A DNA stretch of 38,881 bases, taken from assembly GCA_016205975.1 (NCBI GenBank), contig JACQSK010000015.1, positions 74,624 through 113,504 on the forward strand, in the 5' to 3' direction. Under the pieces are notes generated by a model. It searched no databases, was not told where the DNA came from, and was given only the letters and a program-made list of their open reading frames with translations. Position numbers and translations under genes: made by a program. Source of the stretch: Candidatus Uhrbacteria bacterium. GTDB taxonomy: Bacteria; Patescibacteriota; Patescibacteriia; UBA9934; GWF2-40-263. Position 1 is the first letter of the stretch, and every line of letters starts with the position of its first letter. Below, one piece after another: positions 19,419-35,037 of the stretch.

Positions 19419-20174
19419 ATGTCTCTTCTTGAAGCCATGACAGAAGACATGAAGGCTTCCATGAAAGCCAAAGACAGCGCAACGCTTTCCACGTTGCGTT
19501 TGTTGCTTTCTGCTTGCAAGAATAAAAAAATCGAACTCCTGCACGAGTTGTCTGACGCAGAAGTGCAGGACGTGGTGAAGACGCAAGTGAAGCAGCTCAA
19601 GGACTCCATCGTCTCGTTTGACGCCGGCGGACGCGCGGACATGGCGCAGAGCGCGCGCGCGGAGATTGCGGTGCTTGAGAAGTACCTGCCTGTACAGATG
19701 AGCGAGGAGGATCTGAGGGCGCTCGTGCAAAAAACGATTGCGGAGACCGGAGCCGCGAGCCAGGCGGACATGGGCCGCGTGATGGGCGCTACGCTCAAGG
19801 CCGCTCAGGGTCAGGCCGACGGCGCACGCGTGAAGGGGATCGTGATGCAGCTTTTGCCTGCCGTTGTCCTCGTCCTGGTTGGAACCTCCACGGCCTATCA
19901 GCCAGCGCTCGCGGCCATTCCTCTTGTCGCAGAAGATTTCGGCCTGGACGCCTCCACCATCGAGATGGCCCTGCGCCTGTTCCGCGTGCTGATCCTCTGG
20001 CTGGGCATTCCAGCTATTACGCTCATGCTGACCGGGGGGTTTGGGTATATGACGGCTTCCTCGCGTGACGAGCTCCATACGGAGGCCTGGGGAAAGATGG
20101 CACAAGGATTTTTTGCCACGATCATCGTGGCAGGACTTTTCGCCATTTCGACGATCATCCTCCAGCAGCTCTAA
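19419..20174 (+). CDS. YqeY/GatB-like domain fused in frame to a hydrophobic pilin-like TM module
   Basis: N-terminus MSLLEAMTEDMKASMKAKDSATLSTLRLLLSACKNKKIE...GRVMGATLKAAQGQADGARVKGIVMQLLP is YqeY-like; then AVVLVLVGTSTAYQPALAAIPLV and two TM segments. Confidence 0.8.
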   Translation: MSLLEAMTEDMKASMKAKDSATLSTLRLLLSACKNKKIELLHELSDAEVQDVVKTQVKQLKDSIVSFDAGGRADMAQSARAEIAVLEKYLPVQMSEEDLRALVQKTIAETGAASQADMGRVMGATLKAAQGQADGARVKGIVMQLLPAVVLVLVGTSTAYQPALAAIPLVAEDFGLDASTIEMALRLFRVLILWLGIPAITLMLTGGFGYMTASSRDELHTEAWGKMAQGFFATIIVAGLFAISTIILQQL

Positions 20175-20531: not shown

Positions 20532-22346
20532 ATGACAGAGAAGAGCACACAGAGACTCGCTTCCGGTTTCGTGCACGCGGTTGTGTTTGCCGTGGTGGCG
20601 TTTTCTGTTTTGGCGCTCTGGGCGGTCGCGCTGCCGGCCTTGGCGCAAACGAGCGCGCTGGAAACCGTTGGGTCTGTTTCAGGGTTGCCCACGGACAACA
20701 TCGCCATCATCATCGCCAGAATCATCCGGCAGTTTTTGATGGTCATCGGCATTCTGTTCACTGTGCTCATCGTGTACGCGGGGTTTTTGTACCTGACGGC
20801 GCGCGGAGAACCGGACCCCGTCAAAAAAGCAAAAAAGATTTTCCAGCAGTCCATCATCGGCCTCGTGATTATTTTTTCCGCCTACGGAATCGCCACGTTC
20901 ATCCTGGACCGTCTGCTCGATGCGGCGTTCTCGGGCTCGACCTCGGCGACGGCCGATGCGTACTCTGAACCGCTCTCCGGCTCCTTGGGCGGAGGCATTT
21001 TGGACGACCATTATCCCGAGCGCAACGCCACGGACATCCCGCGCAACACGCGTATCTTCGTTTCGTTCAAGGAAGCCATGAATCCCGCGAGCCTGATCGA
21101 AGGCTACGTGGACGACACGACCTCGACGGACCTCGACATCCAATCCGTCCTCATCTATCCCACGGCGGAGGGATCCGGTTCCGCACTCGCCCAAGACGAG
21201 GTCGTCGTGACGTACGACGATGCGTTTGAGATTTTCGTTTTCGATCCGGTCGAGTATTTGGGCTCGGCTGAGGAGGACACCAACTACACCGTGGTCCTCA
21301 CGACCGATATCGAAAAAGCCGACGGCAGCGCGGCCTTCTCCGGATCGTATGCGGACGGCTATGCCTGGACGTTTGAAGTGTCCACCGAGATCGACCTCAC
21401 ACCGCCAACCGTGACCTCCGTGGTGCCGATCCAGGATGCGGATGAGCCGCGCAATGTCACGATCGAAGTCAACTTCAGCGAGGCCATGGATCCGGTCGCG
21501 GGAACAGGCGCGTACGATGCAGTGCTGGGAGAGCTGTTTACGAATCTGTCCGCCTTCGATGAAGCGGGCGCCAACATCGAGGGGACATGGGAGATCGGGA
21601 ACGCCTATCGCACGATCGACTTCACGACCACGGACGCCTGCAGCGAGGATCCCTGCGGCGACACCATCTACTGTCTGCCTGGCAATGAGACGATCTCCGT
21701 GACCGCCAAGGCCGCCACGCTTAATGAAGACGAAGTCCCCCAGGGCGAACCTACGGGCGTTACCTTCGACGGTCTTGTGGACGCGGCCAGCAATTCGTTG
21801 GACGGTGACGGCGATGGCGATGCGTGCGGGTCGAGTTCGGACACGGTTGATTGCGCGGACGGCGATGAGGACGACGATTACGACTGGAGCTTCACGACCA
21901 CTGACGAGATCGAAGATACCGTTCCGCAGGTTGAGAGCGTGAACCCTGGCCTGGGGGAGGACGAGATCAGCCAGACCAACGACCTCACGGTTACATTCAA
22001 CACCTATCTCAAATCTTCCACCGTGGACTCGAGCAGCGTCTCGTTGTGGCCTGACCCGTGGTACGAGATGTGGTTTGCCGTGCGCAAGAGCAGCACCGGG
22101 GGCGCCACGCAGGTGGCGATCGAGCACCCGACGTTTGTGAGCACAGCGGACGGCGGTTGGGACTACTGGCCGGTTCTCACCCAAGACGTGAAGAGCACCT
22201 ACCAGATCTGCATGTACCCGGCGATCGGGCCGGACTCCTGCACCGAGTCCCGCTCCTCTCTCTATCCTTATTGTTGCGAAGGAACACCTTCCGCGAGCGC
22301 GTGCACGACGGACTCGGGAGAAGCCTTGCCGGATAATTCGGACTGA
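20532..22346 (+). CDS. Surface protein: N-terminal signal and two-TM pilin-like (T4SS_pilin-like) module plus Ig-like (Big_5/SbsA-type) domains
   Basis: IIIARIIRQFLMVIGILFTVLIVYAGFLYLTARGEPDPVKKAKKIFQQSIIGLVIIFSAYGIATFIL; then PERNATDIPRNTRIFVSFKEAMNPAS, PRNVTIEVNFSEAMDP. Confidence 0.85.
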   Translation: MTEKSTQRLASGFVHAVVFAVVAFSVLALWAVALPALAQTSALETVGSVSGLPTDNIAIIIARIIRQFLMVIGILFTVLIVYAGFLYLTARGEPDPVKKAKKIFQQSIIGLVIIFSAYGIATFILDRLLDAAFSGSTSATADAYSEPLSGSLGGGILDDHYPERNATDIPRNTRIFVSFKEAMNPASLIEGYVDDTTSTDLDIQSVLIYPTAEGSGSALAQDEVVVTYDDAFEIFVFDPVEYLGSAEEDTNYTVVLTTDIEKADGSAAFSGSYADGYAWTFEVSTEIDLTPPTVTSVVPIQDADEPRNVTIEVNFSEAMDPVAGTGAYDAVLGELFTNLSAFDEAGANIEGTWEIGNAYRTIDFTTTDACSEDPCGDTIYCLPGNETISVTAKAATLNEDEVPQGEPTGVTFDGLVDAASNSLDGDGDGDACGSSSDTVDCADGDEDDDYDWSFTTTDEIEDTVPQVESVNPGLGEDEISQTNDLTVTFNTYLKSSTVDSSSVSLWPDPWYEMWFAVRKSSTGGATQVAIEHPTFVSTADGGWDYWPVLTQDVKSTYQICMYPAIGPDSCTESRSSLYPYCCEGTPSASACTTDSGEALPDNSD

Positions 22347-22351
22347 GCCCC

Positions 22352-25300
22352 ATGAACCTTCCACATCGATCACGCTTCTTGGGCTCCCTCTTGGCACTCC
22401 TCATCAGTGTCGGTCTGTTTGTCGCTGTTCCGGTTCTGGCCCAGGACGTGGACCTGGAAAGTTTTGCCGAGCAAGCCGGGTTTTCGACTACGGCCGACAT
22501 CACGGTCATCATCGCACGGCTCGTGAGGACGGCGATCTCGTTTGTGGGCGTCGTGGCCGTGGTCTTCGTCGTCTATGGCGGCTTCATGTACATGACCGCC
22601 GGTGGCAATGCCGAGCGCGCGAAGAGCGCGAAGAAGATTTTAGTGAACGCGTTCATTGGAATCGTCCTCGTGTTCTCGTCTTTTGCGATCGTACAGTTTA
22701 TTTTAAACGCGCTTACCGAGGCTACGGGCGCCAGCGTGACGAGCGAGGACGGATCCGGAAGCTCGTTTAGCGGCGAGGGTTCGTCCTCGTCGTTCTATCT
22801 GCGCTCCGTGAATACAGACTGTGCGTCCGCCCTGCAAAACCTCGAACTGCAATTTGTCTTCTCCAAAAAAATAGACGAGGACACGGTCGCCGAGGGCATC
22901 ACGATTACGAAAGCTGGCGCGAGCTCGGCTGTGGAGGGCACCTTTGAGGTGTCGGGCAAGACCGTCACCTTCACGCCCGCCCAAGCCTGCAACGCTCCTT
23001 ACGAATCCTCCGCGTGTTTTGATGCGACAACCGACTACGCGATCGAGCTCGACTCCACCGTCCTGGAATCTTCCACCGGCTCCTCGCTCACCTGCAGCAC
23101 GTCCTATCCGTGTTCGTTTGATTTCACCACGGGCACAGGCGTAGACCTCGCGGGCCCGAGCGTCTCTATGGACGCGCCCGAGGACGGCGAGAGTTTGTAC
23201 GCCGGTTCCATCGAGCTTTTGAGCGCCGCCACCACGGACGACACGGGCGTCTCGACCGTTGACTTTTACGTGATCGATGACGACGAGGCGATTTACTCCT
23301 CGGGCGTGGACCTTTCGACCTTGGGCGAGCTCACGGGCGGCAACGCGGAAAACGTCTTCACTACGGACACGAACGAGGAGTGGAACACGAGCGGCTATAC
23401 CACCAACGAGACGTACTCGGTCTGGGCCACGGGGTCTGATTGCGCGGGCAACGACGACACGGCGAGCGCGGTGGACATCATGCTGCGCGCAAGCAGTTGT
23501 AACAACGAAGTGCAAGACGAAGACCTGGGCGAGGAGGACGTGGACTGCGGCGGCGATGACACGAGCGCGTATTACTGCGGCGCGTGCACCGGGGACGCGT
23601 GTACGGAAAACGCGGACTGCGGGAGCGGCCAGTGCGTGGAGGGAGTGTGCGTGGAGACGCCCAAGATCGAGTCAGTCACCGCCGGCGACGGCGCCGTGGG
23701 CAACCTCATCACCATAGCCGGGGAAGGCTTCGGCGACTCCGCAGGAACCGTGACGTTTTTGGGAACCGAGTCGGACGACGAGGTGACGGCCTCTGCCTAC
23801 GCGTGCAACAGTGAGACGCAATGGTCAGACGGGGAGATCGTCGTGCAGGTGCCAAGCGGGGCCGTGGACGGACCCATCGCAGTTACGACCGCGGACGCGA
23901 CTCAAGACCCGGACCGAACCGACGACGACTACGGTCCGTCCATTGCGGACTTCGATGTGAACCTGATCGAGCGCCCGGGGTTGTGTTCGCTTGATCCGGA
24001 TTCCGGCGCGAGCGCAACCTCCGTGGACGTCTACGGAAATAATTTCGGCGACGCGCAGGGGACCGCCGCCTTCTATTTCACGAACACGGAAGCTTCATCG
24101 TATGTCTCCTGGGAGTCCGACGCGCTCACCGTGGGCGTGCCCAACGTGAATGCCGGCGCCTATCGCGCGCAAGTCTTCACCGGCGACTATGTCTGCGTGG
24201 ACACGCTCTTGAACGCGACCGGCTCTACCTGTTCGAGCGACGACGATTGCGATGCAGACGCGGGGGAGAGCTGCGCACAGAGCTGGTGCTCGCAGACGCT
24301 TGGGTATTGTGAATTCGACGACGACTGCGGCGAGGACGGCGGTGAGTGCGCGTCCATCCGCGTGGGCGGCAACAAGCTGGCGTTCACGGTCGATGAGACG
24401 TCCTCGGAAACCACGCCGGTCATTTCCTCCATCGATTCCGGCTGGAGCGCGTGCTCGGGAGGTAGCGATGAGGGCGAGCGATGCAGCGAGGACAGCGACT
24501 GCGACAGCGGCGCGTGCGAGGATCAGGCCACCTGGGCGCCCAGCGGCCAGTACATCACCATTTACGGAACCAACTTTGGAACGTCCACGGGCTCCGTTTT
24601 TATAGAAAACGAATCGTTGGGATACACCGCTCTGGGTGACTCCGACTTTCCCGATGCCTGCGGGGAAGATTTTTGGCATGATACGCAGATCACCATCAAA
24701 GTCCCCGAGACGTATCAGAACGACGTGGACATAGAAACGGGCACGCACGCGCTCTCCATTGAACGCGCCGACGGCGGCGAGTCTGACGCGACGGACATGG
24801 TCATCTTGGACGACACGCCTGGCCCAGCCATCTGCGACCTGGATCCAAGCGCCGGACCGGTAGGGACCGAGGTGACGGTCTACGGCGAAAACTTCGGCAG
24901 CGCCGAGGGCGAGGTGGAGTTTTATTCGGAGCTTTCGTCCTCCTACACGCTGTGGGAAAACGATCAGGTCAGCGCGGCCGTTGTGCCGGAGGGCGCCGCC
25001 ACGGGCCCCGTGTACGTCATCGAATCCGTGAACGGGTACCCGTCCAACTCGGCTAATTTTGAAGTGGGAGACTGCAACGAGGATTCGAGCCTGTGCGAGG
25101 AAGGCGAATCCTGTTGCTCGGACGGCTCCTGTTCCACTTCCTGCGAAGAGGACGAAGACGTCGAGGCCCACTACGCCTTCAAGGTCTCAACGGGCATCAC
25201 GCCCAACACGCCCGAGGTCGTCGTGGAATGCGATGATAGCATTGCCTCGCCGTCTCCTTGGGAAGGCTGGAGTGAACCGGAAACCGTCTGTGTGAATGCA

Positions 25301-28300
25301 ACCGTGCACGTTGATTTTGACATGGACATGGACGTGAGCACGCTGACGGCCGCGAACATCACGGTAGAAAAATGTACGGCCGAGGATGAAGATGGCGCGT
25401 GTGAAACTTGGGAGGCGGTGAGCGCCTCCGACATCGAGACCAGTACGACCGGGTTCACCTGGACGCCGGTTTCGGATTTTGATGCGGACACGCGCCACCG
25501 TGTGACCTTGAACGGGAGCGGTGAGGAGGGAGCGATCCAAGCGGACGAAAGCGCGGGCGGCGGGTTCCTCGACGGTGACGAGGCCTGGGAGTTTACCACC
25601 AGCAGCAGCACGGACGCCTGCGAGGTAGGCGGCGCCAACGTGAGCCCGCTCACCGAATCGGTGGCAGAGACAGGGGACGTGAGCTATCTGGCCACGCTCA
25701 CCGCCGCGGACGACCAGTGCGTGACACTCTCCTGCAGCGGCTACACGGTTGATTGGGCGTCGGATTTCGACGGCGCGGTTATTGACACGTCGCGCCCCGG
25801 CGAAGGGATTTGTACCAACACCGTGGACGCGCAGAGCGAGACGGACGCTGGCGACCCAGCGATCATCACCGCCACGGTGACCGATGCCCAGGGCGATCCA
25901 TCGGGCGAGGGCGAGCTCACCATCAACTTTACCGATCCTGAGGTCGACGACTATTTTCCCGACTGCGCCTCAGCCTGCGTGAACGCCAAGCCGTGGGCCG
26001 AGTTTAACACCGACATGAGGGAGAGCACGCTCACGACTGCCTCGGTGACGCTCTGGGCCTGTGAGGATTCTTTGTGCGCGGCCTCCGAGCTCACGGAGGT
26101 TAGCTTCGTTTCCTCCATCGACTACGATGACTCCACGCAACGTGCAGAAATTGTTTTCACATCGGGCTCCACCATGAACGAGAGCGCCTGGTACAGAGTC
26201 GTCTTGGATGGCGACGCGATCACGGCTGCCAACGGCAACGTGCTTTCCGAGTCAGGCTCTAACTATGGATCTGATGCCAACCGGTATTTTGAAGATGACT
26301 TCTCGTGGGTGTTCAAGACAAAAGATTCCGACGTGAGCTGCGGCGTGGATTCGGTCGTGGTTTCGCCGCCCACGACCACGCTCACCGCCGTGGGCGACCG
26401 CGCCGAGTTTGACGCGACCGCGTACGGCGAGCCGGACGAGTGTTCCACTCAAGGCGAGGCCTTGCAGTCAGACTCGTTCACCTGGAGCGCGTGGGGGGCA
26501 GAGGACACGCCCAACGCCTTGGGTGACTCGACCGGTTCCTCCAGCGACCAAGATGACATCGTGGCGTACATGATTTTGGACGGCGAGATTGCGATGACCA
26601 ACGACCTGCCAGCGTACTGCTCGGGGTCCTGTTTGAACGTGGGTGCGAGCGTGACCACCAGTGACGGCGTGTGCGGCAACGGCAGCGAGGAGACGTATGA
26701 GGAGTGCGACGACGGCAATACAGATGACGGCGACGGCTGTTCCAGCTCCTGTTTGAACGAAGGCACGAGCGCGTGCACGGCAACGGTTGTGAACGGCTGC
26801 TGCGGGGATGGCAGCCGCGACTGGACGTCCAGCGCGGGCGGAGAAGATTGCGATGACGGCAACGCGACCTCGGGCGACGGCTGTTCTACCTCCTGCTTAA
26901 ACGAAGGCGCGCGCGCCGTGGGTGCGACCTGCGGGGACGCCACACGCGACTGGGTCACGGAAACCGGCGGCGAGGACTGCGATGACGACAACGGGGTGAG
27001 CGGCGACGGCTGTTCCAGCAACTGTTTGAAAGAAGGCTCTCAGGCGGCTGACGACGTCTATGCCATCTGCGGCAACGGCAAGGCGTGTACGGTTGATGCG
27101 AACTGCGGCGAGGACGAAACATGCAGCGATCTTGGGTCTTGCGTGGAGCCGGGAGAAGACTGCGATGACGGCAACGCGACCTCGGGCGACGGCTGTTCCT
27201 CTGCCTGTTTGAACGAAGGCACGAGCGTCTGCGCCACATCCACCGCAAGCGACTGCTGCGGAAACGGCACGCTGGAGACCGGCGAGGACTGCGACGGAGG
27301 TCCAGCAGGCGAGGACGGCTGTTCCTCCACCTGTTTGTTTGAAGGTTCCTCGTACGCCTACGCGACGCCGTCTTTCTGCGGCGACGGCGACACAGGAGAC
27401 GGCGAGGAGTGCGAGGCTTCTTCCTCATCCACCTTGACCGTTGGTGATTATTCCGTAGGCCAGATCGCCACGGGCGCGCCGACGGAAGTGGACGCGACAA
27501 GCGGTTATGCGATTTCCCGCGTGAGTGCAAGCGTGGAAGGGGAGAGCGACACGGCCACGCTCCAGCTTGAGTGCTCCTGTACGACCGATGCCTCCTGCGG
27601 GGAGGTCGCGACGCTGGGGTGCGGAGAGAGCAACTGCTGTTTTACGCGTCCCGGGGTGAGCGAGGCCTACCCGGCCGACAACACCGCGAGTCCTGGCGAC
27701 GGCTATTGTCGCAACAGCGCGATCTACGCGGTCTTCACGGGACTCATGGACGAGGCAACGTTTGACGGCAACCTGTATCTGGATTTGGAATCTATCGATG
27801 GGGTCACCGTGGGCGACGCAGACGCCTGTCCCGAGGGCTATACGACGAGCTCGACCACCGTGCGAGCCTCTTCACCGCTTGCTCGCGCATGGCAATGGCT
27901 GAAAGGCGCGGTGCTTGGCGTGTTCGGCCTGGATGCGAGCGCCTCCACGACCTTTGATTGTTTCCTGCCCGTGAGCTATGAGACGGTGACCGATGAGAGT
28001 GGAACCAGCGACACCGTGTACCTGCGCTACAGCTCCTTGCTTGAGGAGGACGGCATCTATCGTCTGGTGGTCGTCGGGGACGACACCTCGACGGACACGA
28101 CCTTTGACGGCGTCTTGAGTCAGGACGCAGCTGCGCTGTGCCTTGGCACGGATTGTTCTTCGGACACCTACGCGCAGTCGTTCTACGTGGGCTCGGAAGT
28201 CTGCGACCTGGATTCTGTGAGCGTGGAAGATGAGGGCGACGTGAACGCGGCTGAGTTTGAGTCTGCAAGCGAGGAGTACTTCAGCGCCACGGATGAGGAA

Positions 28301-31300
28301 CATTCCTTCGCGGCCACGCCCTTGACGCAACGCAGCGCGACGGCCGAGGAGATCTCGCCCATCGCCGGCGTGTACGAATGGAGCTGGTCCTGGACGTCTT
28401 CCGTGGACGATGAGAGCGAAGACGACATCGTTGGAATCTCAAGCGGCGACGCAGCCGATGACACGCAAACGCTCTACACGGCCGCAGGCAACGACGGCGA
28501 GGAAACCGTGATCGCGACCGCGACCGTCACGGTGGACGAGTGGAGCACGACTTCCACCGTGGGAGATACAACCACCGGCACGCTCGCGGTCGCCGCCTTG
28601 GTGTGCGAGAACCCCTGGCCGGCGCTCGACTCGAGCCTGGGCTTCCCGTACGTGGAAGACGTCACGCCGAGTTACTTTTCGTTTTTCTATTGCCGCGACG
28701 CAGGCGAAGATGGCACCGATGATGATCTGCCCGCCTTGGAGGATCCCATCGACGTGACCTCGCTTGCCTCCTCGGACATCATTCAAGAATTGATTTTCCA
28801 GGTGGAAGATACCTCTGACGCGATCGGCGTGCGCGTCATTCCCAACGAAGACTACCTCTCGCCCGGCGCTTGGGTGGAGGCGGCCGAGTTCACCGGCACG
28901 TTTGGGGAGACCGAGCTGGACGGCTATGCGGCCGTGGAGAGCGGCACAACTCTGTACGCCGCTGCGGCCAACCAGAGCGGCACGACCATCTATCCCAACA
29001 TCTATGTCGTCTCCTATAACGACAATGCCGGCGAGGATGCGAAAGATATTTTTTCCGAGATTTTGGAAAATTGGAAGTTTAACGCCAACGACGACGACGT
29101 CACGGACGTAAACTTTTGCTCCGATGGGACAGACTATGTGACCACCGATGACGGCGAGTACCTCTCATGCGACTGGGACGGCGATTGCGCGGAGACATGC
29201 GAGGACAGCGTGTGCTCGCTCACCGGTGAGGCCTGTTCGACGGATGCGGACTGCGAGCTTGCCTCCGGCGCGGGCGTGTGCGACGCAGAGAAAGCAAAAC
29301 TGACGCGCGACATGCGCCGCCTCACGGATCTGACCGACCTGACCGCGACGCTTCAGAGCTACGGCGAACAGAACGCCCACTGCGCGGTTACCACCGACCA
29401 GTCCTGCGATTCAGACGCCGAGTGCCCGGGAACCGAGGACTGTCTGCTTGGCTTCCCAGACGTGCAGTCCGGCACGTTCGTCCCCGCGCTCACCAACAGC
29501 GCCTGGGGCTCCTGGAACTCGGCATTCGCCAACGCGCTCGCCACCACGCCGCCAACGGATCCCACGAACGCCTTTTATGCGTGCGACGAGGACGGCTATG
29601 ACGCAGCCTCCTGCTGGAACGGCGAGGCTGGGACATTCATCTGTCCGGACAACTCGCACGTGTACGGCTACCAGAGCTCGGGCGGCATCGCCTATACGCT
29701 CTACGCGCAAATGGAAACGTCGGCAAACGCCGCTTGGCCTTACGATATAGATGCCGACTCGACAGACGAGGTTACCTTGGTTGTCGAGTATCCGTCGGGC
29801 GCGGCACCTTCCTCCACGCTCCAAGACGGCTTTACCGCCACGGCGCAGTTCTGCGACGGAGGCACATGGGGAGATTCGGAGATCTGCGGAGACGGCACGC
29901 AAGGTGTGAGCGAGGCGTGTGAGATCGGGGACACGAAAGCGAGTCCGTGCACGGACTCCTCCGGCGAGGCCGGCTGGATTTCTTCCGCGTGCGTGAGCGA
30001 CTGCTCCGACTATCAGACACAGACGCAAGCCGAGACCGCGGGCGCCGAGTGCGTGCCCTACGAGTGCGGCAACGGCGTGGTGGACTCAGGCGAGACGTGC
30101 GACGACGGAAGCTTGAACGGCACCTATGGCTATTGCGGCGACGATTGCACCGGCTATGACTTCTATTGCGGCGATGGCTATTTGGCGGGCACGGAGCAGT
30201 GCGACTGCGGCATCACCGGACTCTACGACTACACGGATGCCACCGCCGATGACACAGGTTCCTATGCGTATCTCTCAACCTGCGATGTTTCCAATGGCCA
30301 GTACTCGAGCGCCATCGGCGTGAGTTGCGCGTATAACTGCACGCAGCCAGGACTTGCCTGCGGCGACGGGGTCGTGAACGGTGCGGAGGCCTGCGACGGC
30401 GACTACGAAGAATGGGAAGGCGCGTTGTGTTCCGACGGCGTGACCGAATGCACCAGCGACTCTGATTGCGATGCGGGCGCGTGCGGGGACGGCGGGGCCG
30501 TGAGCGGGACCGGCGACGTGTGCACGGATTGGGAGGATGCAGGGGAAACATGCACGCAGAACAGCCAGTGCGATTCAGGATCCTGCGACGGGGGCGTGTG
30601 CGGGAGCGCCTCGGACGCCGGTGATGTGTGCATGGCTGACAGCGATTGCGAATCCGAGTCCTGCCCAGACTTCAACTACAGCCTCTACCGCTACCGAACG
30701 TGCGAGAGCGACTGCACCTGGCCATCGACATGGACCGGGCCCGTGGGCGGCGAGCAGATTTGCGGCAACGGAACCGTAGAGGGAGCCGAGGCCTGCGACG
30801 ACGGAAACTCATCCAACAACGACGCGTGTCTGAACACCTGCACGGAGAATGTCTGCGGAGACGATTACGTCGAGTCGGGCGTGGAGTCCTGCGACGACGG
30901 CGACGACAACGGCGAGGTGTGCGAGGCCGGCTATGAGGATACGTGCAATTACTGCAACGCGCAGTGCCAGTACAAGACGCGCTCCGGCGGCTACTGCGGA
31001 GACGAGGTCGTGAACGGCGATGAGGTCTGCGACGGGACGTACTCGACGGCCTTCATATGGTTTGATAGCGCCACGGGGGACACGCAGGGGAGCTGTGAGA
31101 CCTACGAGGATGATGAGGAAGTCGAGTCAGGCGGGGAAACGTACAGTTATACCTGCCGCTGGCTGGGCGTCTGTAACGGCGGGGCCGAACAGGGCGACGT
31201 CTGCACGCTTGATTACTCGACCTACGCCTCTTCCGGTTCCGTGGAACAGCTCGCCGCGTCGCGCGCGGGTAACGTGAACACCTGCAGAGGCGACGTCAAT

Positions 31301-32608
31301 GACGATACGGACGACGGCGAGTGTGTGCCGCCTGTATGCGCAGCCAATTGCGGTTCATCGTGTCCGTTCTCTTATGAGACGACGGGCCTGTTGGTCCAGA
31401 GCGAGCTTTCCGGCGCGTCGCAGACAGACACGGTGGCGCTCTACAGCTATCAAAACGCCGACGGCAACTCTCCGGACAACGCGGTCGTGTACGTGCCCGC
31501 CTGTACGGCCGCCACGAAAATCACCGCGGACGTGGACAACGACGAGGTGGTTCCGCCGGACGTGGACATTGTGTTTGTGACGGACTTGACGAGCTCTATG
31601 TCCTACGCTCCCGGAGGCAGTTCAGAAGCCGACCCGGGCGAGCGCAAGATCGATTATGTGATTGACGCCGCGAAGGACGCCGTGGAGGAACTGTTTGACG
31701 CCTACGACAGCTACGAAAACTCGACGCTCCAGATCGGGCTCGTGTCCTATACATCGAAGTATCGGGATGATTACTCGTTCGGCGATGCGGCTTACAATTT
31801 CTGTAACTCGACCAGCATCGGTGTGAGCCCGGACGGTGCCTGGCAAGACCAGCAGCTCGTGAATCAAGAGGACGGTGAGTCCGCGATCTTGGATGATCTC
31901 AGCTCCTATGCGGACTGCGTTTGCGAAACATGCCTCTCAGATGGGTCGAGCTCTGGCTCCACGCCCACCTACCGCGGAGTACAAAAAGCCATCAGTGCGC
32001 TCGAGGACTCCGAGGCGGACGTGAAGATTGTGGTTCTGTTGACCGACGGCGACGTGGATTGGAATGAGTCGTTCCAGCAGACGGGAGACGCCGATGATTG
32101 CGCCTTCGAGAGCAAATCCTATCAGGGCCAAGAGTATGAGGGCTCCGAGGCCTGCATCGCCGACATCGCCGACGATCTGATCGAGGATTCGGATATCCTT
32201 TTCTATACAGCCGCTGTCACCACCAGCAGCAGGCGGCAAGGCTATACGGCGCACATGTCGAGCAACACATGCGCCTGGGATGAGGATGAGGAAGGCATCA
32301 GCTCCACAGACGACTGTTCAGGCAACTACGCCTTCGCGGCCGAGGATGAAGAAGGCATCGAAGAGATGTACGACGCGATCGTGGATGCGATCCTGGGCAC
32401 CAGCGTAACCTTCACGACCACCGACGAGAGCGGCACGACCTACACGACAACTGGAGGCGTCGAGGCTGGCACGGACGTGACTCTTCCGTTCCCTGATGGT
32501 TTTATCTGTGACTCCAGTGAGCAGACCATCCCGTTGCGCAACAGCTTCTATGGTGAAGGGACGATGCAGTTCTCTGACCTGGAGCTTACCTACTGCCCCT
32601 ACCAGTAA
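22352..32608 (+). CDS. Giant 3418-aa acidic Cys-rich surface protein: pilin-like TM module, Ig/IPT-like, DUF4215-type Cys repeats, pseudopilin-like segment, C-terminal VWA
   Basis: IIARLVRTAISFVGVVAVVFVVYGGFMYMTAGGNAERAKSAKKILVNAFIGIVLVFSSFAIVQFIL; IPT-like CSLDPDSGASATSVDVYGNNFGDAQGT; repeats EDCDDGNATSGDGCSTSC; VWA VDIVFVTDLTSSMSYAPGG...VVLLTDGDVDW. Confidence 0.92.
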   Translation: MNLPHRSRFLGSLLALLISVGLFVAVPVLAQDVDLESFAEQAGFSTTADITVIIARLVRTAISFVGVVAVVFVVYGGFMYMTAGGNAERAKSAKKILVNAFIGIVLVFSSFAIVQFILNALTEATGASVTSEDGSGSSFSGEGSSSSFYLRSVNTDCASALQNLELQFVFSKKIDEDTVAEGITITKAGASSAVEGTFEVSGKTVTFTPAQACNAPYESSACFDATTDYAIELDSTVLESSTGSSLTCSTSYPCSFDFTTGTGVDLAGPSVSMDAPEDGESLYAGSIELLSAATTDDTGVSTVDFYVIDDDEAIYSSGVDLSTLGELTGGNAENVFTTDTNEEWNTSGYTTNETYSVWATGSDCAGNDDTASAVDIMLRASSCNNEVQDEDLGEEDVDCGGDDTSAYYCGACTGDACTENADCGSGQCVEGVCVETPKIESVTAGDGAVGNLITIAGEGFGDSAGTVTFLGTESDDEVTASAYACNSETQWSDGEIVVQVPSGAVDGPIAVTTADATQDPDRTDDDYGPSIADFDVNLIERPGLCSLDPDSGASATSVDVYGNNFGDAQGTAAFYFTNTEASSYVSWESDALTVGVPNVNAGAYRAQVFTGDYVCVDTLLNATGSTCSSDDDCDADAGESCAQSWCSQTLGYCEFDDDCGEDGGECASIRVGGNKLAFTVDETSSETTPVISSIDSGWSACSGGSDEGERCSEDSDCDSGACEDQATWAPSGQYITIYGTNFGTSTGSVFIENESLGYTALGDSDFPDACGEDFWHDTQITIKVPETYQNDVDIETGTHALSIERADGGESDATDMVILDDTPGPAICDLDPSAGPVGTEVTVYGENFGSAEGEVEFYSELSSSYTLWENDQVSAAVVPEGAATGPVYVIESVNGYPSNSANFEVGDCNEDSSLCEEGESCCSDGSCSTSCEEDEDVEAHYAFKVSTGITPNTPEVVVECDDSIASPSPWEGWSEPETVCVNATVHVDFDMDMDVSTLTAANITVEKCTAEDEDGACETWEAVSASDIETSTTGFTWTPVSDFDADTRHRVTLNGSGEEGAIQADESAGGGFLDGDEAWEFTTSSSTDACEVGGANVSPLTESVAETGDVSYLATLTAADDQCVTLSCSGYTVDWASDFDGAVIDTSRPGEGICTNTVDAQSETDAGDPAIITATVTDAQGDPSGEGELTINFTDPEVDDYFPDCASACVNAKPWAEFNTDMRESTLTTASVTLWACEDSLCAASELTEVSFVSSIDYDDSTQRAEIVFTSGSTMNESAWYRVVLDGDAITAANGNVLSESGSNYGSDANRYFEDDFSWVFKTKDSDVSCGVDSVVVSPPTTTLTAVGDRAEFDATAYGEPDECSTQGEALQSDSFTWSAWGAEDTPNALGDSTGSSSDQDDIVAYMILDGEIAMTNDLPAYCSGSCLNVGASVTTSDGVCGNGSEETYEECDDGNTDDGDGCSSSCLNEGTSACTATVVNGCCGDGSRDWTSSAGGEDCDDGNATSGDGCSTSCLNEGARAVGATCGDATRDWVTETGGEDCDDDNGVSGDGCSSNCLKEGSQAADDVYAICGNGKACTVDANCGEDETCSDLGSCVEPGEDCDDGNATSGDGCSSACLNEGTSVCATSTASDCCGNGTLETGEDCDGGPAGEDGCSSTCLFEGSSYAYATPSFCGDGDTGDGEECEASSSSTLTVGDYSVGQIATGAPTEVDATSGYAISRVSASVEGESDTATLQLECSCTTDASCGEVATLGCGESNCCFTRPGVSEAYPADNTASPGDGYCRNSAIYAVFTGLMDEATFDGNLYLDLESIDGVTVGDADACPEGYTTSSTTVRASSPLARAWQWLKGAVLGVFGLDASASTTFDCFLPVSYETVTDESGTSDTVYLRYSSLLEEDGIYRLVVVGDDTSTDTTFDGVLSQDAAALCLGTDCSSDTYAQSFYVGSEVCDLDSVSVEDEGDVNAAEFESASEEYFSATDEEHSFAATPLTQRSATAEEISPIAGVYEWSWSWTSSVDDESEDDIVGISSGDAADDTQTLYTAAGNDGEETVIATATVTVDEWSTTSTVGDTTTGTLAVAALVCENPWPALDSSLGFPYVEDVTPSYFSFFYCRDAGEDGTDDDLPALEDPIDVTSLASSDIIQELIFQVEDTSDAIGVRVIPNEDYLSPGAWVEAAEFTGTFGETELDGYAAVESGTTLYAAAANQSGTTIYPNIYVVSYNDNAGEDAKDIFSEILENWKFNANDDDVTDVNFCSDGTDYVTTDDGEYLSCDWDGDCAETCEDSVCSLTGEACSTDADCELASGAGVCDAEKAKLTRDMRRLTDLTDLTATLQSYGEQNAHCAVTTDQSCDSDAECPGTEDCLLGFPDVQSGTFVPALTNSAWGSWNSAFANALATTPPTDPTNAFYACDEDGYDAASCWNGEAGTFICPDNSHVYGYQSSGGIAYTLYAQMETSANAAWPYDIDADSTDEVTLVVEYPSGAAPSSTLQDGFTATAQFCDGGTWGDSEICGDGTQGVSEACEIGDTKASPCTDSSGEAGWISSACVSDCSDYQTQTQAETAGAECVPYECGNGVVDSGETCDDGSLNGTYGYCGDDCTGYDFYCGDGYLAGTEQCDCGITGLYDYTDATADDTGSYAYLSTCDVSNGQYSSAIGVSCAYNCTQPGLACGDGVVNGAEACDGDYEEWEGALCSDGVTECTSDSDCDAGACGDGGAVSGTGDVCTDWEDAGETCTQNSQCDSGSCDGGVCGSASDAGDVCMADSDCESESCPDFNYSLYRYRTCESDCTWPSTWTGPVGGEQICGNGTVEGAEACDDGNSSNNDACLNTCTENVCGDDYVESGVESCDDGDDNGEVCEAGYEDTCNYCNAQCQYKTRSGGYCGDEVVNGDEVCDGTYSTAFIWFDSATGDTQGSCETYEDDEEVESGGETYSYTCRWLGVCNGGAEQGDVCTLDYSTYASSGSVEQLAASRAGNVNTCRGDVNDDTDDGECVPPVCAANCGSSCPFSYETTGLLVQSELSGASQTDTVALYSYQNADGNSPDNAVVYVPACTAATKITADVDNDEVVPPDVDIVFVTDLTSSMSYAPGGSSEADPGERKIDYVIDAAKDAVEELFDAYDSYENSTLQIGLVSYTSKYRDDYSFGDAAYNFCNSTSIGVSPDGAWQDQQLVNQEDGESAILDDLSSYADCVCETCLSDGSSSGSTPTYRGVQKAISALEDSEADVKIVVLLTDGDVDWNESFQQTGDADDCAFESKSYQGQEYEGSEACIADIADDLIEDSDILFYTAAVTTSSRRQGYTAHMSSNTCAWDEDEEGISSTDDCSGNYAFAAEDEEGIEEMYDAIVDAILGTSVTFTTTDESGTTYTTTGGVEAGTDVTLPFPDGFICDSSEQTIPLRNSFYGEGTMQFSDLELTYCPYQ
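26679..27420 (+). repeat. Tandem DUF4215-type Cys-rich repeats in the giant gene
   Basis: Successive CGxGxxxxxEDCDDGNxxxGDGCSSxCLNEG units; 38-bp identical stretch tgcgatgacggcaacgcgacctcgggcgacggctgttc at 26849-26886 and 27161-27198. Confidence 0.85.
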
Positions 32609-32612
32609 CCTT

Positions 32613-33377
32613 ATGGACTTCCAAGACCAACCGATAACAACAGCGCGCTCCATTCCCTGGAAGCCAGTGGCGATCGCCGCGGGCGGGTTGCTTGTGGCAG
32701 TGCTTGTGGTCATCCTGGCGGCGCGCCTCCTGCGCGGGGACGAGGCCACGCGCTCGCTCTTGCAAGAGGCTGAAGAGCTCGCAACGCCCGCGCTCGTGGC
32801 GGATTTTGCCGCGGACCATGGCTCCCTCGAGGCCTGTGAGTTGCTTGAAAGCGAGCAAGCGAGGGATAATTGTGCTTGGGGCGTTGCGCGCAGTCTTTCT
32901 GATGCGTCCCTGTGTGGCGCGCTGACGGATCCAGCCGCGGCCATGCGTTGTGCCGATGGTATTGTCGAGGCGTTGGCAATCGCAAATCTCGACGTGAGCG
33001 CGTGCGAGGCGATTCAAGACGGCGAGCGCGAGGCTCGGTGCATAGCGCTCCTCTCGGAGCCCGTGACCAGCGAAAATTGTCTTGAGCGCGCAACCGAGGC
33101 GTGCGACGACATTCGTCTTTACGAAGAAGCTGTAGCCACGCTCGACGCGCTTTTATGCCGCGAGATCGTTGAGGAGGGTCGGCGAGAATCCTGCGAGGAA
33201 GCCGTCGAGGATCGCTTGGACGTGCTGACAGAGGATGATGACGAAGACGGACTGACCAACGAAGAAGAGGCGCGCTACGGAACCGACCCGCAGAGTCCTG
33301 ATACCGACGACGACGGCTACCTGGACGGCGCGGAAATCGATGCTGGATATAATCCTAACGGCCCCGGCCGTCTTTAA
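32613..33377 (+). CDS. Single-TM protein with Cys-pair helical repeats and C-terminal TSP3/EF-hand-like Ca-binding repeat
   Basis: TM SIPWKPVAIAAGGLLVAVLVVILAARLL; DDDEDGLTNEEEARYGTDPQSPDTDDDGYLDGAEIDAGYNPNGPGRL. ATG 32613 is 4 bp after the giant gene. Confidence 0.85.
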   Translation: MDFQDQPITTARSIPWKPVAIAAGGLLVAVLVVILAARLLRGDEATRSLLQEAEELATPALVADFAADHGSLEACELLESEQARDNCAWGVARSLSDASLCGALTDPAAAMRCADGIVEALAIANLDVSACEAIQDGEREARCIALLSEPVTSENCLERATEACDDIRLYEEAVATLDALLCREIVEEGRRESCEEAVEDRLDVLTEDDDEDGLTNEEEARYGTDPQSPDTDDDGYLDGAEIDAGYNPNGPGRL

Positions 33378-33386
33378 TCTTTCTCT

Positions 33387-34007
33387 ATGTTTGAAGATGT
33401 TAAAAAAGAACCTGAAGACATTTTTTCCGAGTCCGACGCGTCGGCTCCGCAAGTGGTTCCTCCGACCGAGCCGCCCCCAGGGCCCGCTCCCGTCATGAGT
33501 CCCATGGCACAGCGTCCCGCGCCCGCGCGCCGGTCGTTCCCCTGGAAACCGGCTTTACTGGTTGTCGCCATTGTGGTCGTGGTCGGCGCCGCGTTTTATC
33601 TCTCGGTTCAGATTTTGCGTTCCAAGACGCCCGTAACTCCGGAGCCGCCAGCGCAGGACGAATCCGCGGCCGCCCCTGTCTCCAACTCGGGTGCGGAGGA
33701 AGAGGAAACATCCGTCCCATCCGACCTCTCTGACCAAGGGGCTGAAGAAGAAAAAAAACCATCCTCGGCTGACACGGATAAAGACGGCCTGACCAACGAC
33801 GAGGAAGAAGCGCTTGGTACCAGCCCGCGTGCGGCCGACACGGACGGCGACGGTTTGTTTGATCTGGAGGAAGTCAGGACATGGGAGACGAATCCGTTGA
33901 ATCCCGACACGGACGGCGACGGCTATTTGGATGGGGAGGAAGTGAGCGGCGGGTATAATCCAAACGGTGAGGGCGCGCTGCGTGAAGCGCCGACAGAATC
34001 TGATTAG
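33387..34007 (+). CDS. Single-TM protein with TSP3-like Ca-binding repeats
   Basis: SFPWKPALLVVAIVVVVGAAFYLSVQIL; DTDKDGLTNDEEEALGTSPRAADTDGDGLFDLEEVRTWETNPLNPDTDGDGYLDGEEVSGGYNPNGEG. Confidence 0.87.
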   Translation: MFEDVKKEPEDIFSESDASAPQVVPPTEPPPGPAPVMSPMAQRPAPARRSFPWKPALLVVAIVVVVGAAFYLSVQILRSKTPVTPEPPAQDESAAAPVSNSGAEEEETSVPSDLSDQGAEEEKKPSSADTDKDGLTNDEEEALGTSPRAADTDGDGLFDLEEVRTWETNPLNPDTDGDGYLDGEEVSGGYNPNGEGALREAPTESD

Positions 34008-34011
34008 CCCT

Positions 34012-35037
34012 ATGAGCGACACGACTCCACAGCTTCAACAGCCCGCTGAACAATCGCAGAAGCCTGCAGGGATCGAGGCGCGCGTGTTTACGATGCCCGA
34101 GCGGTACCGTCATGGCGCGGAAGGGAAGGTGCACGAGCCTGAGACGAAAGGGCCAAGAGCGCCCGTGGAGATTAAAACGCCGTCGGTTCCCTCCGCGCCC
34201 GCCTTGCCGCCGAGGCCACCTGCGCGTCAGAAAAAAATATCGAGCACAAAAAAGATTCTCCTCCTGGGCGCGGTCGTCTTGTTGGCGCTTGGCGTGGGTG
34301 GAACCATTTTGGTTTCAAGCGTTGAGGAACAGGGGCAGGAGGAGATCGTCACGGCCCCCGTCGTGAGACCAGAACCTCAACCGACGCCCGAGCCTGAACC
34401 CGAGCCTGAACCTGCAGGGGAACCCGAGCCGGAGCCGGAGGTGTTTCCCGTTGAGGTCCTGCCCGGTACAGACTCGGACTCCGACGGACTCTCTGACACG
34501 GAGGAGAGAACCATCTATGGCACGGACGTGCGTTTGCCTGACTCAGACACGGACGGATTCCTGGACGGCAACGAAGTGTTCCATCGGTATAATCCCGCGG
34601 CGCTGGGAACGCTCCTTGCCGCTGGAGTCGTGACGACGTGGCAAGCACAGACGCCTGAGGGCGAGGCGGGAGTCCAGAGAGTGGAATACGCGTTTGATTA
34701 TCCGACCGTTTGGGAGATGGAGTTCCTGGACGGGGAGCTCGTGTTGGACGCGCAGATCGGCGAGGGGTTCCGCATCTCGTTTGTCGAAAAGCAAGTAAGC
34801 CTTGCCGCCTGGGCCAGTGAGAACGTAGTGCTCGAGGATTCCATTTTTGGCACGACGAAGAACGGACTCCAGCTGTTGCAATCGAGTAACCAGCTTGAGG
34901 CGTATGTGGATCTCGGTTTGGCCGTGATGATCGTGAAATACGACACGGGGGTCAAGGCGCGCGTGGATTATTTGCAGACCATGCAGATGATGTTGAACAG
35001 CGTGAGGGTGGTGAACGGGTCGGACGAGCCGCTATGA
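34012..35037 (+). CDS. Single-TM protein with TSP3-like repeat and extra C-terminal domain
   Basis: KILLLGAVVLLALGVGGTILVSS; Pro/Glu linker PEPQPTPEPEPEPEPAGEPEPEPE; DSDSDGLSDTEERTIYGTDVRLPDSDTDGFLDGNEVFHRYNPAALG. Confidence 0.85.
   Translation: MSDTTPQLQQPAEQSQKPAGIEARVFTMPERYRHGAEGKVHEPETKGPRAPVEIKTPSVPSAPALPPRPPARQKKISSTKKILLLGAVVLLALGVGGTILVSSVEEQGQEEIVTAPVVRPEPQPTPEPEPEPEPAGEPEPEPEVFPVEVLPGTDSDSDGLSDTEERTIYGTDVRLPDSDTDGFLDGNEVFHRYNPAALGTLLAAGVVTTWQAQTPEGEAGVQRVEYAFDYPTVWEMEFLDGELVLDAQIGEGFRISFVEKQVSLAAWASENVVLEDSIFGTTKNGLQLLQSSNQLEAYVDLGLAVMIVKYDTGVKARVDYLQTMQMMLNSVRVVNGSDEPL

Follow-up and report, generated by a model that had tools for sequence, protein, structure and literature searches.

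Introduction

Patescibacteria carry arrays of VirB2-like pilins of type IV secretion systems (T4SS) (PMC12102498), and Ca. S. epibionticum cannot do without its T4SS and a pilin series (PMC10633639). In the sole genetically tractable lineage of the phylum, the essential functions include type IV pili, a T4SS with its pilins and a number of adhesins (PMC10633639). A T4SS survey of 3,035 genomes found no PrgB-type T4SS adhesins (PMC12102498), and the attachment of these organisms to hosts and surfaces is largely open. Among type IV pili, modular pilins have been described, such as S. sanguinis PilB, which joins a pilin module to a C-terminal VWA domain with a metal-ion-dependent adhesion site (MIDAS); the most extreme member cited has 860 residues (PMC8179133). 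A VWA domain set in a beta-sandwich is also found in the sortase-pilus and type V tip adhesins RrgA, PitA and Mfa5, and the integrin beta headpiece holds a VWA-type domain in the same way. Here, we describe a giant gene of Candidatus Uhrbacteria (class ABY1, Patescibacteria; PMC12577380), found in a metagenome-assembled genome (MAG) of 938,558 bases that is 94% complete. The window, that is the whole stretch of 38,881 nucleotides that was analysed (C5:74624-113504; contig JACQSK010000015.1), contains at 22352..32608 of the forward strand an open reading frame (ORF) of 3,418 codons for a protein of 3,418 residues. We propose, at about even confidence, that this giant is a surface adhesin, a "modular pilin" of the T4SS (VirB2) type.

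A VirB2-type pilin domain heads the giant protein

The ORF has no internal stop and the window contains no N. Chance can be ruled out for the frame, since collinear homologues cover the whole length in all readable relatives and no residue type is better conserved than cysteine. A reading of the letters alone, here called the sequence-only reading, had proposed this uninterrupted frame together with an ordered series of Ig-like/IPT-like segments and Cys-rich modules, and the searches bear it out on both. Pfam matches T4SS_pilin (PF18895) at aa 49-117, Big_5 three times, Big_7 twice, IPT/TIG four times and VWA from aa 3072, and NCBIfam finds the Cys-rich repeat myxo_disulf_rpt (TIGR02232) in seven stretches (E 5.7e-18), here as part of a pilin-headed protein. 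Both DUF4215 (21.7 against 27) and VWA (19.8 against 23.8) score below their Pfam cut-offs.

Hydropathy reveals three N-terminal hydrophobic segments only (aa 12-30, 61-79 and 96-114). The first looks like a cleavable signal peptide, and Ala30, the predicted -1 residue of the cut, is kept in 94% of relatives. The other two are the helices of the PF18895 domain, which matches with E 1.5e-7 and 31.8 bits against a curated cut-off of 26.6, and with 40.0 bits in the genome-wide search. Two N-terminal transmembrane helices had been seen before; what had not been recognised is that a signal peptide precedes them and that they form a T4SS_pilin domain. With known VirB2-like pilins (PMC12102498; PMC10633639) the giant has in common the signal peptide, the two transmembrane helices, the basic loop and a score above cut-off. 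Those pilins are small and typically, though not always, have virB4 or other T4SS genes beside them, whereas the giant adds about 3,300 predicted extracellular residues and is encoded away from virB4. With 3,418 residues it is not a small free pilin but a fusion protein, of which the pilin domain belongs to PF18895. Of the segments listed, this domain is conserved best: its identity to the window averages 0.636 across family members, while all the others lie between 0.29 and 0.59.

Averaged over 39 giants, the net charge is +2.0 in the inter-helix loop and -1.8 in the 30 residues past the second helix, averages that include meaningless values from L032 and L105, which the regular expression anchored wrongly. 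By the positive-inside rule, the basic loop and acidic C-terminal flank predict the pilin loop inside the cell and the C-terminal 3,300 or so residues outside. Past the N-terminus hydropathy finds no further transmembrane segment above the normal threshold, in line with the earlier claim that membrane segments are N-terminal only; hydropathy next peaks at aa 1854-1872 (mean 1.24), a stretch that belongs to a conserved Trp-rich helix. In F pilin the loop is turned to the lumen and both termini to the outside (PMC5018250), so a C-terminal extension on such a pilin is sterically possible. All 176 cysteines lie past the second transmembrane helix, the first at aa 157; their mean identity is 0.89 and 121 are fully conserved in the alignment of relatives. 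Together with the three genes for disulfide-forming VKOR in the genome, this fits an oxidised exterior. Independent evidence for an extracytoplasmic location comes from two relatives of different genera, L029 (5939-18360) and L102 (5506-17169), in which two genes take the place of one, with the break behind the pseudopilin-like segment. In both, a separate signal peptide (..PALA|VAPRV and ..AYA|VAPT) opens the VWA half, which shows that this half is exported. A cytoplasmic VWA domain, which the sequence-only reading had named as the case against itself, is countered by the charge asymmetry and by these signal peptides, which both place it outside.

It might be that the pilin-like helix pair is a mere membrane anchor and the giant a monomer that forms a VWA-headed stalk on the surface and never enters a pilus, which we consider somewhat unlikely. 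The gene does lie apart from the pilin array and from virB4, and an extension of this sort on a VirB2-type subunit was not found in the literature searched; the passages searched of the patescibacterial T4SS survey likewise contain no such fusion (PMC12102498). However, pilin-type sequence, including the loop, is kept at the highest conservation of the protein, beyond what a generic anchor needs, and the same gene cluster encodes another protein with a pilin head as well as a YqeY fusion with a pilin-like part.

The terminal head is a VWA domain inside a beta-sandwich

The C-terminal region (aa 2985-3418) was modelled with AlphaFold from a 14-sequence alignment (pLDDT 78, pTM 0.76), and the model predicts an alpha/beta VWA domain inserted into a beta-sandwich. 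Foldseek gives as best solved structures PitA (3e-12), Mfa5 (8e-10), integrin beta heads (1e-8), RrgA (1.5e-8) and S. sanguinis PilB (4e-8). The VWA identity that Pfam leaves below cut-off is supported by model and Foldseek. The insertion is supported by two relatives without the VWA domain, L033 and L036, which retain both halves of the host beta-sandwich. The sequence-only reading had the protein end in the VWA domain at CPYQ; it is the last strand of the host sandwich that ends there. The MIDAS residues of the giant (pattern DxTxS, T, D) are retained by most VWA-bearing relatives and are degenerate in L021 and L038. With a mean identity of 0.32 among family members, the VWA domain is the fastest-evolving and least conserved folded domain.

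The likeness to known heads has clear limits. No sequence homology was detected between the head and the solved tip adhesins or integrin beta, and for the latter the resemblance is one of topology only. Unlike RrgA, PitA and Mfa5, the giant has another anchor, and no LPxTG sortase motif was found in it. The head matches that of PilB structurally. Modular type IV pilins, in contrast, begin with a class III prepilin helix (GFTLIE-type) where the giant has a signal peptide and a VirB2-like two-helix pilin, and because it lacks the class III N-terminus the giant is not a member of that group; the PilC beta-propeller domain of PilY1/PilC tip adhesins was also looked for and gave no Pfam match at E<=1. 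By analogy, the giant would work most like a modular pilin, but within the T4SS pilin superfamily. If so, the modular pilin idea would reach beyond type IV pili to the pilins of T4SS, and the giant would supply an adhesin that patescibacterial T4SS surveys have missed (PMC12102498).

The core is spread through the class

The family sample comprises the loci of 20 relatives, with some giants interrupted by contig ends. In 19 of the 20 the giant is preceded by a companion of about 600-690 residues that likewise has a signal peptide and a pilin domain, and the contig of L021 stops at this point. The wider searches used two alignments, A1 for the core (aa 2085-2500) and A2 for the terminal module. 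A1 has matches in 239 of the 286 genomes of the class (84%), and in 215 of the 242 that are at least 90% complete. In a phylum-wide sample of Patescibacteria it occurs in 30 of 33 genomes labelled as the same class or closer, and elsewhere in one of 347, a marginal match (E 5.8e-5). Most of twenty distant class members have the same gene pair and an N-terminal signal peptide with two transmembrane helices, on giants of about 2,000-4,700 residues. The pilin domain is common beyond the class, on ORFs of at most 551 residues among the best matches listed. A tandem pair of pilin-headed giants (3,069 and 1,996 residues) occurs in one class member (L097:418-16436). A pilin-headed frame of 14,266 residues (L124; G104:C1:501292) was rejected, since 40,000 masked N produce it.

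The "CENPWP..YFSFFYCRDAG" domain of the sequence-only reading is the conserved core domain (aa 2085-2250), a class-wide marker; a confident known fold could not be assigned to it, as Foldseek gives no match below 1e-3 (best E 9e-3, with PsbP-like folds among the top matches). The pseudopilin-like segment of that reading (aa 2309-2458) is weakly supported. It has short collinear matches to the genome's own pseudopilin at an hhalign probability of 25%, and a search with its profile recovered no ordinary pseudopilins.

The sequence supports the pilin head, the predicted outside location, the gene pair, the class-wide spread and the VWA head with its loss; adhesion, pilus incorporation and processing are inferred from it. 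As far as the papers searched show, the giant has not been described and is class-wide. Tentatively, this would be the first "modular T4SS pilin": a class-wide family of adhesins that are giant, rich in disulfides, perhaps internally processed and topped by an integrin-like head, and that use a VirB2-type pilin as their module for assembly. With its core in 84% of the sampled class genomes and, in its order, a head that bears a metal site, the giant is a concrete candidate adhesin; together, giant and companion could serve to mark the class.

How the giant might work

In the mechanism that we propose, the signal peptide would be removed and the two-helix pilin domain would sit in the cytoplasmic membrane, where it is predicted to keep its basic loop on the inner side and its two termini on the outer. 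The roughly 3,300 residues of Ig/TIG domains and disulfide-rich repeats would make up a stalk directed outward. At its far end the beta-sandwich with its VWA domain, judged by structure, would bind a ligand on another cell or surface, probably via the metal site. The pilin domain would most likely dock with or enter a T4SS-related pilus or its base, so that the giant would be the adhesin of that machine. This is the most likely arrangement because a pilin-like sequence is kept, free T4SS pilins are present in the genome and relatives have VirB4. The genome has nine PF18895 matches, five of which form an array on contig C6, and in a pilin-domain tree of low resolution (about 70 columns), too weak for dating the fusion, the giants of the family cluster with one lineage of array pilins. 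A VirB4-type ATPase (P-loop_TraG) was found in 37 of 43 family genomes, among them all three congeners. A search for PrgI (PF12666) gave no match, but the control genomes gave none either, so the result is uninformative.

Several observations speak against an adhesin built into a T4SS pilus. VirB4 was not found in the source MAG, 94% complete as it is, and reading the translations recognised no virB4 or other T4SS genes beside the giant in the 38.9-kb window. The TM-scores of the head are modest (TMq 0.3-0.4) and the VWA fold dominates the resemblance, so that topology rather than close kinship is shared with pilus-tip adhesins. Every one of the 19 genomes sampled from the order has the terminal module A2, as against just 13 of the other 267 class genomes; together with the class-wide A1 this indicates a lineage-specific head on a class-wide stalk. 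The VWA domain is cleanly gone from L033 (7131-17243) and L036 (7177-17187), and in L029 and L102 it belongs to a separate secreted gene; thus it is not a fixed tip, and the fission shows that a covalent tether between VWA and pilin is not indispensable. The sequence-only reading had seen the VWA domain as the distal tip of a very long tether. Its external position and tip-adhesin-like fold agree with this, while its dispensability does not.

Cleavage between anchor and VWA domain at a conserved [AV]xA is possible, judged by motif, and would also argue against a continuous tether; such a cut, if made, would leave anchor and VWA as separate chains. A Trp-rich amphipathic helix (aa 1847-1864) ends in this motif. 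In all 19 family members containing the region, position -3 is Ala or Val and -1 is Ala, with -2 variable, which matches the signal-peptidase I rule; most have Gly at -6, and basic residues stand ahead of the helix. Signal peptidase I might hence cut after about aa 1864, giving a membrane half of pilin and TIG domains and a C-terminal VWA half that is released or held non-covalently or by a disulfide. We think this unlikely, although it would be compatible with an adhesin. Similar elements in many class members, the signal-peptide-like segment within the upstream YqeY-pilin fusion, and the split genes, in which a new signal peptide shows that the halves can be separate, all favour it. The helix, however, is too polar for a transmembrane helix (mean hydropathy 1.24) and is a loop within a Big_5-like domain, flanked on both sides by conserved cysteines. 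The element was found by hidden Markov model in some distant class members and is missing from several, and six distant examples were chosen with a pattern that itself requires [AV]x[AS]. The survey relied on direct inspection and such models, a strict-threshold regular-expression screen having missed nearly all members. Among the things that the sequence-only reading had said would speak against its tether, a second membrane segment was not found, whereas a conserved motif resembling a signal-peptidase I site was.

Quite improbable, in our view, is a protein that is no adhesin at all but a structural scaffold at the cell surface or in a secretion system, such as a pilus or a machine for DNA uptake, whose VWA domain would serve in assembly. 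A class-wide core with an order-specific, dispensable VWA head would suit a scaffold, and ABY1 T4SS loci often include competence genes (PMC12102498). Against it, the head best matches pilus-tip adhesins and integrin heads, and rapid VWA evolution suits a module that faces a ligand. An adhesin of the modular pilin type stays the reading that we prefer.

Gene neighbourhood

The features of the giant and its neighbours are collected in Table 1. The spacings of 5 bp and 4 bp on either side of the giant suggest an operon; scans for promoters and terminators showed nothing of use around its start.

Table 1. Positions of the giant, its parts and neighbouring genes in the window
Feature	Position	Strand	Basis or remark
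YqeY-like domain, internal signal-peptide-like segment and two-transmembrane pilin-like domain, in-frame fusion	19419..20174	+	
Companion, 604 aa: signal peptide, T4SS_pilin and Big_5-like domains	20532..22346	+	5 bp upstream of giant
Giant pilin-headed protein, 3,418 aa	22352..32608	+	Frame, translation, alignment
Predicted signal peptide, aa 1-30, cleavage VLA|Q	22352..22441	+	Hydrophobic segment, conserved Ala30; inferred
T4SS_pilin (PF18895, VirB2-like), aa 49-117, two transmembrane helices and basic loop	22496..22702	+	Pfam
Big_5 / Big_7 Ig-like domains, aa 150-380	22799..23491	+	Pfam
IPT/TIG array with Cys-rich inserts, aa 437-904	23660..25063	+	Pfam
Cys-rich acidic repeats (myxo_disulf/DUF4215-type), aa 1440-1690	26669..27421	+	Pfam, NCBIfam
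Trp-rich amphipathic helix and AxA, aa 1842-1864 (..RAWQWLKGAVLGVFGLDASA)	27875..27943	+	Candidate processing or membrane-contact element
Conserved core domain, aa 2085-2250, class-wide marker	28604..29101	+	Homologue searches
Pseudopilin-like segment, aa 2309-2458	29276..29725	+	Weak profile evidence
Second Cys-rich repeat region, aa 2500-3005	29849..31366	+	Pfam, NCBIfam, alignment
Terminal beta-sandwich host domain, N-terminal part, aa 3005-3066	31364..31549	+	Model, VWA-less relatives
VWA domain, MIDAS DLTSS (aa 3078-3082), T3206, D3232	31562..32386	+	Pfam, AlphaFold, Foldseek
Beta-sandwich host domain, C-terminal part, aa 3350-3418, end YCPYQ	32399..32605	+	Model, VWA-less relatives
Downstream gene: single transmembrane segment and DxDxDG calcium-type repeat	32613..33377	+	Start 4 bp after giant

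The signal-peptide-like segment of the YqeY-pilin fusion reads ..YQPALA|AIPL. The fusion recurs in most relatives in which the region is readable, and in L028 and L032 it is replaced by two separate genes. Closely spaced behind the giant stand three consecutive genes, each with one transmembrane segment and DxDxDG repeats (32613-35037), and similar genes also follow it in some relatives. An apparent fusion of the giant with its downstream gene in L035 was rejected as a product of masked N (277 X). Elsewhere in the genome, on contig C23 (L041:6731-8284), a Cys-rich protein of about 517 residues also carries a pilin-like domain with two transmembrane segments.
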